From Synergistaceae bacterium (GTDB lineage Bacteria; Synergistota; Synergistia; Synergistales; Aminobacteriaceae), in assembly GCA_018436595.1 (NCBI GenBank), contig JAHDLC010000032.1, positions 1 to 43,551 of the forward strand: DNA of 43,551 bases, read 5' to 3'. Shown here in pieces: positions 23,224 through 43,129 of the stretch. The position numbers were made by a program, and so were the translations under genes. Every line of letters starts with the position of its first letter. The stretch's first letter is position 1. The notes under the pieces are model-generated. The model ran no database searches and was not told where the DNA came from. It worked only from the letters and a program-made list of their open reading frames with translations.

Positions 23224-23270
23224 GCCCCCGGTAAACAGAATGGTTTGACATCCCGAGCGCAGCGTATGTT

Positions 23271-23509
23271 TTGTCATCCCGAACGACCGAAGGGCGGAGG
23301 GATTGAGCTTTTGCTGTCGTTCTGAGCGAAGCGAAGAACCTCGCTCTTGCTGTCGTTCAGAACTGAACGGTTGATCGCGGTCGCATTTGTTTGTCATCCC
23401 GAACGACCGAAGGGCGGAGGGATTGAGCCTTTGCTGTCGTTCTGAGCGAAGCGAAGAACCTCGCTTTTGCTGTCGTTCTGAACTGAACGGTTGACCGCGA
23501 TCGCATTTA
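23271..23509. repeat. 120-bp intergenic repeat, two tandem copies
   Basis: The 120-bp unit at 23271-23390 is repeated at 23391-23509/10 with only a few changes. Each begins TTGTCATCCC-GAACGACCGA and contains TGTCGTTCTGAGCG and GAACTGAACGGTTGA. Not coding: the six-frame readings are repetitive and lack ribosome binding sites. Confidence 0.85.
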
Positions 23510-23850
23510 TTGTCATCCCGAACGACCGAAGGGCGGAGGGATCTCGCCTTTGGTTCCGAGTGCCGTCAAACCCTGAGATCCCTCCCCTCCGGGGACGCGA
23601 TCGGCCAAAAACCGGCCTCGGGATGGCTCCTGAAAACCCACTGCGAGATCCTTCACTTCGTTCAGGATGACAAACCGGGATCCTCCACCTCCGGGGACGC
23701 TCCCTCCGCTTCGTTCTGGATGCTGCGCGAGCGTGATCGCATTTGTTTGTCATCCCGAACGACCGAAGGGCGGAGGGATCTCGCCTTTGGTTCCGAGTGC
23801 CGTCAAACCCTGTGATCCCTCGGCCAAAAACCTGGCATCGGGATGACAAT
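23510..23850. repeat. Further copies of the intergenic repeat family
   Basis: A third copy starts at 23510 and a fourth at 23748 with the same first 31 bases, then both switch to a different internal sequence (CTCGCCTTTGGTTCCGAG...). The block ends with GGGATGACAA near 23839-23848, the inverted complement of the starting TTGTCATCCC, so the family has inverted ends like the elements at 19456-19664. Together with the tandem pair this fills the gap 23224-23940 before the GntR promoter; nothing else is visible there. Confidence 0.75.
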
Positions 23851-42357: not shown

Positions 42358-42528
42358 TCATGGTTTCTTGGGCGGTGGACTCGGAAAGTCAACAGGTTTC
42401 GCTTCACTTGCCGTTGATTGATAATTGTTCGTCACACTTTCTCCCGCCTGATTATTTGGCTTAGGTATGGGCTGGTAACCTTTTTTTAATGGCTGGTAAC
42501 CTTCCTCTATTTTTTTCTTGTCAGTCAT
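42358..42528 (-). CDS. 56-residue protein with YQP repeats, unknown function
   Basis: Small gene found by direct translation. The ATG at 42526-42528 follows AAGGAGG by 5 bases, an excellent site. The protein starts MTDKKKIEEGYQPLKK, repeats the GYQP unit (GYQPLKK, GYQPIPK) and ends in a Pro-rich tail (FPSPPPKKP). It is probably disordered. It overlaps the end of the membrane-protein gene by 8 bases, so the two are coupled. No family known to me. Confidence 0.7.
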   Translation of the reverse strand: MTDKKKIEEGYQPLKKGYQPIPKPNNQAGESVTNNYQSTASEAKPVDFPSPPPKKP

Positions 42529-43129
42529 GATTGCCTCCTTGTTCTATGGTGAAGAGTTCAATGGAAATAATCTCCGGGGTCAATATAATGATTCCCGCTG
42601 TATCATTTCTCTTTCTTTCAAATCCACCATCATTATTTACAACCCAGGCCTCTTCAAGATATAGTTGCTCAGGAGCAGGTGCACTTGATGCAAAAGATGA
42701 ACTATCGTAAAGACCTGCGATCTGTTTGCCATCTTTTAGCGTAACAATAACCCAATATGGCTTTCGTTGGCTAAATACGTAATCCCATGGCTTTCCTGTT
42801 GGGTGAGGCATTATCGATTGGAAGCATTGAGTTGTACGCAATTTCTTAAAAACCAATACCCACGCGACCGGGGCTATCAAAAATACAATTACATAGAAAA
42901 GAATGTAAAAATTTGGGAATTTGGTTTTTACCTGATGTATTTCCACCACAGAGATAGGCCAAAACAGCAGAGCGTAGTTGACACAACTGTACGCAATTGC
43001 GTCGATTAGTTGTTTTGTTGATTCCTTCGGGGTCGACGCAAGGAGGAGTTCATAAGTCTTCAGGCTAACAAAACCTGGAATTACAAACGCAATAAATAAG
43101 AACATTTTATCGGTTCCCCAAATATCCAT
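42521..43129 (-). CDS. DUF6338-like membrane protein
   Basis: 202 residues from the ATG at 43127-43129, which has GGAGG 5 bases upstream (an earlier TTG overlaps that site). Three membrane segments (about 9-28, 45-66, 76-97), then a cytoplasmic domain with YWVIVTLKDGKQIAGLYDSSS, PEQLYLEEAWVV and TAGIIILTPEIISIELF, a pattern I associate with the DUF6338 family. Function unknown. AT-rich like its neighbours. It may be the membrane part of the island or an independent passenger. Confidence 0.7.
   Translation of the reverse strand: MDIWGTDKMFLFIAFVIPGFVSLKTYELLLASTPKESTKQLIDAIAYSCVNYALLFWPISVVEIHQVKTKFPNFYILFYVIVFLIAPVAWVLVFKKLRTTQCFQSIMPHPTGKPWDYVFSQRKPYWVIVTLKDGKQIAGLYDSSSFASSAPAPEQLYLEEAWVVNNDGGFERKRNDTAGIIILTPEIISIELFTIEQGGNHD

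Follow-up and report, generated by a model that had tools for sequence, protein, structure and literature searches.

The closest described counterpart of the gene pair analysed here is found in P. stutzeri ATCC 14405, where a DUF6338 gene lies in a predicted operon with three proline-rich proteins of under 50 amino acids (PMC10433244). According to that report, digest-free sequencing of lysates of uninfected cells revealed the small proteins, which were well expressed (44–114 PSMs), and the DUF6338 protein itself was not detected. The small proteins were judged to be restricted to P. stutzeri and to be possible de novo genes, and DUF6338 was said to occur in biosynthetic clusters. We liken this operon to the module described below by the description of its small proteins. 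However, whereas the small proteins are regarded there as restricted, we find such partners across phyla by motif; this suggests that the P. stutzeri-only judgement arose because a BLAST identity threshold was used on disordered proteins that evolve fast. The accumulation of the small proteins without detected DUF6338 in P. stutzeri fits a ligand in excess and proves nothing. The literature searched, mostly without subscription journals and preprints, gave no other description of DUF6338, and others may exist. A preliminary description of the locus knew of no account of the pair; this is nearly right, but PMC10433244 does report the three P. stutzeri small proteins beside DUF6338.

In the window (the whole stretch of 43,551 nucleotides that was analysed) the pair lies on the minus strand, with the following features:

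42521 to 43129, minus strand: DUF6338 gene, 202 amino acids, ATG at 43129 and stop at 42521.
42358 to 42528, minus strand: gene of a small disordered GYQP-repeat protein of 56 amino acids, MTDKKKIEEGYQPLKKGYQPIPKPNNQAGESVTNNYQSTASEAKPVDFPSPPPKKP; ATG at 42528, stop ending at 42358.
42545 to 42805, minus strand: Sm-like domain of DUF6338, residues 109–195, from Foldseek and VIA; predicted to be cytosolic.
42746 to 42748, minus strand: DUF6338 residue 128, Ile here, in strand beta-1 of the Sm-like domain, picked out by covariation.
42692 to 42694, minus strand: DUF6338 residue 146, Phe (as in 76 of 77 loci), candidate contact of the Gly of GYxP, from a single event.
42490 to 42501, minus strand: first GYQP motif, residues 10–13 of the small protein, read from the sequence.
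42469 to 42480, minus strand: second GYQP motif, residues 17–20, read from the sequence.
42361 to 42378, minus strand: C-terminal PPPKKP tail, residues 51–56, the commonest tail of the family.

The larger protein is a member of Pfam PF19865 (E=1e-37, 130.2 bits against a cut-off of 26.5, profile positions 6–201 of 205), an entry that gives no function and describes neither the Sm-like domain nor the regular small partner. The two genes overlap by 8 bases (42521–42528), and the mini-gene has a strong ribosome binding site (AAGGAGG, 42540–42534), both as first described; the DUF6338 gene likewise has one (GGAGG, 43139–43135), and each site lies 5 bases ahead of its ATG. The "YQP repeats" of the preliminary description amount to the two exact GYQP copies, the third copy being degenerate (NYQS). 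Known defence families (PADLOC-DB 2.0.0, E up to 1) gave no match to DUF6338 and none to the small protein, and PHROGs gave none of value for either.

We drew DUF6338 loci from plasmids, phages, IMG/VR and species genomes. In all 82 loci with enough downstream sequence, DUF6338 is followed on the same strand by one to three small ORFs with GYxP-type motifs, and the pairing of the two genes as a unit is thus kept in every testable locus. These partners are about 40–85 amino acids long and mostly have a proline-rich end (PPPKKP, PPGDE, PPKER or PPKKK), with PPPKKP terminating 32 of 99 small ORFs. The strict pattern of motif plus proline-rich tail is found directly downstream of DUF6338 in 77 of the 82 loci, compared with 42 of 10,037 (0.4%) other ORFs of 35–110 amino acids at the same loci. 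The remaining five comprise four divergent forms (L062, L097, L099 and L102) and an in-frame fusion (L055, 3874–4599), in which DUF6338 and a GYQP protein share one frame of 241 amino acids that keeps the RBS-like AGGAG and ATG of the small gene. Across the 99 small ORFs there are 232 motifs, 227 of them with Gly before the aromatic residue. Since their median dN/dS is 0.12 (26 independent pairs of relatives), the small ORFs are constrained proteins; their conservation in frame in relatives, on which the preliminary description had made its reading depend, is upheld. Among the carriers of the pair are Pseudomonadota as well as MAGs labelled Nitrospirota, Candidatus Viridilinea and Sumerlaeota. 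Behind several DUF6338 genes of Actinomycetota (Streptomyces, Rhodococcus, Dietzia and Curtobacterium) there are likewise small ORFs bearing one or two YxP-type motifs, but these ORFs are more divergent and less certain as partners; viral contigs yielded no actinobacterial DUF6338. On this comparative evidence, DUF6338 and its small ORF are a real, conserved and mobile module.

Two features go beyond the preliminary description: a Sm-like domain that ends DUF6338, and covariation of both partners. An AlphaFold2 model of DUF6338 built from 67 sequences (pLDDT 86) begins with three long helices and ends in a barrel, and we model the protein as three transmembrane (TM) helices followed by a Sm/LSm-fold domain, placed in the cytosol by loop charges (positive-inside). 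The layout of the barrel in the model is of Sm type, with a helix (H114–120), then strands, forming a five-stranded barrel. Among solved structures, its best matches belong without exception to the Sm, LSm and Hfq proteins. Using the predicted structure, Foldseek gave a best E of 3.3e-3 (probability 1.00) and VIA aligned the domain to AF-Sm1 with Z 8.1 over 73 residues at 23% identity, although a Z near 8 can also arise from a common small barrel arrangement. We keep the Sm reading despite the modest Z because the match list is uniform, the whole domain is covered and weak Pfam matches agree; these profile matches to Sm-like families lie below their cut-offs (SM-ATX, E=0.07; ROF, E=0.12–0.17). 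No significant relative of DUF6338 was found among PDB sequences. The mechanosensitive channel MscS also has three TM helices and a Sm-like beta domain. It is absent from the Foldseek and VIA matches listed, and as a structural analogue of DUF6338 it is only an idea.

The small protein's last eight residues and the Sm-like domain have net charges that vary inversely (rho −0.79), and the relation persists in phylogenetically independent contrasts (r=−0.49, t=−4.8; 35 contrasts of opposite sign against 12). Two controls gave no signal: the Sm-like domain paired with the remainder of the small protein (r=−0.09), and the TM part of DUF6338 paired with the tail (r=−0.01). In a scan of all 202 DUF6338 columns, residue 128 came out best. 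Where it is K or R the small protein ends in D or E (19 loci), where it is E the small protein ends in K (2 loci), and where it is uncharged, that is hydrophobic or T, the end is P, K or R (56 loci), so that 77 of 77 loci are concordant (table 19/0/0/58). Both traits change five times on the DUF6338 tree, every time on shared branches among 152, and two of these changes are K-to-E at residue 128 together with E-to-K at the peptide end. A blind choice of five shared branches would have a chance of about 1 in 6e8, a figure that takes no account of branch lengths, nor of the column having been chosen after the fact from a scan, and these may cost it perhaps three orders of magnitude. Further loci of the same clade obey the rule, with only the uncharged class among them; the strict fit in Actinomycetota is 2 of 6 pairs, and a search of viral contigs for new acidic-tail loci gave three matches, none with DUF6338.

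The covariation of charge, and of residue 128 with the last residue, is strong evidence from sequence that the peptide C-terminus binds the Sm-like domain directly. For the GYxP motif, locus L068 is the only one with F146C and also the only one in which every repeat is SYxP and not GYxP, and this coincidence is moderate evidence that the motif would dock on the same domain. The natural fusion L055 speaks for the pairing as well; its AlphaFold2 model gave pLDDT 57–60 over the GYQP part and about 70 at PPPKKP, with no strand and no confidently docked tail. DUF6338 and the small protein very probably form a receptor-ligand complex.

The module is an autonomous cargo of mobile elements, carried by prophages, plasmids and a Tn7-like element, the latter also holding TIR and caspase-family genes. 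In prophages it is often oriented against the surrounding replication genes, for example in E. coli (L107) and in a P2-like Pantoea plasmid-prophage. Ten loci share one prophage type. Adjoining genes include six integrases, several TIR proteins, two reverse transcriptases and two SNF2 helicases; farther away the genes are mostly housekeeping or generic mobile ones. As the neighbours are diverse and none is constant, we rejected a fixed larger operon; a TIR-caspase pair alone recurs. This pair, a small TIR protein and a caspase-family protease, lies next to DUF6338 modules at L006:6853-8221, L076:9643-11002, L077:8482-9872 and L113:3160-4523, in distant hosts (Proteus, Lysobacter, Photobacterium and Curtobacterium) and in differing orientations, and might constitute a separate two-gene defence system. 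On two Acinetobacter plasmids (L007:2513-7096 and L118:4858-9096) metallohydrolase and ThiF/MPN-type genes immediately precede the module and a WYL regulator is close by, an arrangement that resembles ubiquitin-like conjugation operons. A Streptomyces plasmid (L108:4641-8959) has DUF6338, a 48-amino-acid GYTP protein and a 1172-amino-acid CHAT-domain protein in overlapping or nearly contiguous genes.

R-M, TIR, TIR-caspase, ThiF/MPN or CHAT genes occur within 5 kb in roughly 6–8 of 12 annotated contexts, against about 3–4 of 20 ten-kilobase control windows from four of the same plasmids, both being small numbers. A near/far comparison with PADLOC, made by family and not by protein, is uninformative per locus, and its far set holds defence genes too. 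The defence enrichment of DUF6338 neighbourhoods, whose absence was to count against the preliminary reading, is suggestive only and favours a defence-type role; a defence or exclusion role of the module is the likeliest reading, with roughly even chances.

A reverse search, for DNA encoding a C-terminal PPPKKP followed by a stop, gave 89 ends, 52 of them with an in-frame GYxP-type motif. Just behind DUF6338 lie 36 of these 52 and none of the 37 motif-less ends; one motif-bearing end (L187) has DUF6338 on the same contig, outside the stretch compared. Orphans of about five unrelated families, on phage contigs without DUF6338, have a GYQP whose end lies 14–23 residues from a C-terminus that reads PPPKKP, where the chance expectation for exact GYQP is 0.03. 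In one family (L126, L140, L155, L161, L179, L190 and L192) the small ORF has the lysis genes on one side and the small terminase gene on the other; a relative occurs in Providencia phage PSTCR8lys. Further phage proteins with the GYQP-linker-PPPKKP end are found in L121, L150, L164 and L184; four orphans are Cys-rich, and L147 has the same tail with a different N-terminus. Because they share the end of the cognate ligand, the orphans are candidate mimics of it, and copying this end likens them to phage-encoded antitoxin mimics or counter-defence decoys. Unlike these, however, the orphans sit in late gene regions, where an early inhibitor is not expected.

As a whole, these observations are best explained, we think with somewhat better than even probability, by a two-component mobile receptor-ligand module in which a membrane receptor restrained by its ligand may act in phage exclusion or abortive infection. 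DUF6338 would be an inner-membrane protein, its cytosolic Sm/LSm-fold domain acting as receptor and, by analogy with the Sm fold, assembling into a ring-like oligomer. The small proteins would be disordered multivalent ligands, whose one to three GYxP motifs and proline-rich end dock on the Sm-like domain so that the last residue comes to lie against residue 128. Bound ligand may hold DUF6338 in a resting state; an infecting phage would disturb the binding and release DUF6338, the cell would be blocked or killed, and phage exclusion or abortive infection would result. The orphan phage proteins would be mimics keeping DUF6338 silent. More tentatively, and rather less probably, this would amount to immunity or exclusion of a kind not recognised before: a membrane-anchored Sm-like receptor checked by small multivalent GYxP peptides, which are read out to the last residue, and countered by GYQP...PPPKKP look-alikes of phages.

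The same carriage by plasmids, prophages and islands, and the same small disordered partner that appears to bind a larger protein, would also suit a toxin-antitoxin-like addiction module that maintains the mobile element, with DUF6338 as toxin and the small protein as antitoxin, as would overlapping or near-adjacent genes each with its own ribosome binding site. However, the partner lies downstream, often in two or three tandem copies, which is unusual for antitoxins, and there is no DNA-binding regulator; the only toxin-antitoxin match of the pair is to TsaT, below threshold (E=0.09). We regard this explanation as unlikely.

If the fold were taken as a guide, DUF6338 could be a membrane-anchored RNA-binding Sm protein modulated by the small protein, given that its best structural matches bind RNA. 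Fold likeness shows no function, however, and inspection of the equivalent loops found no conserved residues of the D-x-M-N (Sm1) or R-G (Sm2) type. The invariant residues include instead W115, D116, F119, S148 and W162, with F146 nearly so. DUF6338 shares the fold of Sm/LSm/Hfq proteins, but differs from them in being membrane-anchored, in that canonical RNA-binding residues are not evident and in that its apparent ligand is a peptide; a role in RNA binding seems distinctly improbable.

Several paralogous short genes with repeated motifs, together with the biosynthetic clusters mentioned in PMC10433244, could indicate bacteriocin or RiPP precursor peptides that DUF6338 exports or protects. 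Yet no modification, protease or transporter gene is conserved beside the pair, a leader-core pattern is missing, and the P. stutzeri small proteins were found in cell lysates by digest-free sequencing. We consider precursor peptides very improbable.

That the pair serves as an accessory of the neighbouring SIR2-HerA anti-phage system, as was first suggested, might be read from the arrangement in the window. SIR2 (41961–40825) and then HerA (40828–39065), both PADLOC matches, follow on the same minus strand and share a low-GC island with the pair: GC is 43–45% over HerA, SIR2, the pair and the contig end (38900–43551), against 58–66% in the preceding 7 kb. Because of this low GC, and because DUF6338 exceeds the family cut-off in this genome only among 188 searched in the phylum, the island was probably acquired. 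No Rfam family or tRNA was found within it; from about 43345 an ORF whose IS21- and HTH-type matches are weak extends beyond the contig end. Elsewhere in the window, a tandem repeat (23269–23542) has 2.3 copies of 120 bases that are 94% alike. Against an accessory role, the small ORF and SIR2 are 396 bp apart, the proteins of the two systems are unrelated and SIR2-HerA occurs near DUF6338 at only 1 of 77 related loci (L081), 6–9 kb away. Promoter and terminator scans bearing on co-transcription gave signals at chance level. We therefore rejected this role on linkage as highly improbable, the adjacency being incidental. Of the preliminary alternative, a separate defence or immunity unit, the separateness from SIR2-HerA holds, and a defence-type role is plausible.

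Polyproline and C-terminal proline slow translation and termination, which could make the small ORFs nascent-chain sensors whose PPPKKP-stop ends stall ribosomes and so monitor the translation state. This is barely credible, as many members end in PPGDE, PPKER or PPKKK, the small ORFs come last in the unit, the P. stutzeri small proteins accumulate (PMC10433244) and the covariation of residue 128 is left unexplained.

Read as a membrane receptor and its peptide, DUF6338, so far of unknown function, and the overlooked small genes behind it become a receptor-ligand pair that can be tested by mutating single residues. Prophages, plasmids and islands of several phyla carry it. The conserved module argues against counting such small proteins among de novo orphan genes, and suggests that a Sm fold was co-opted for peptide binding at the membrane. 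The phage-borne look-alikes would offer a direct test of immunity and counter-immunity.
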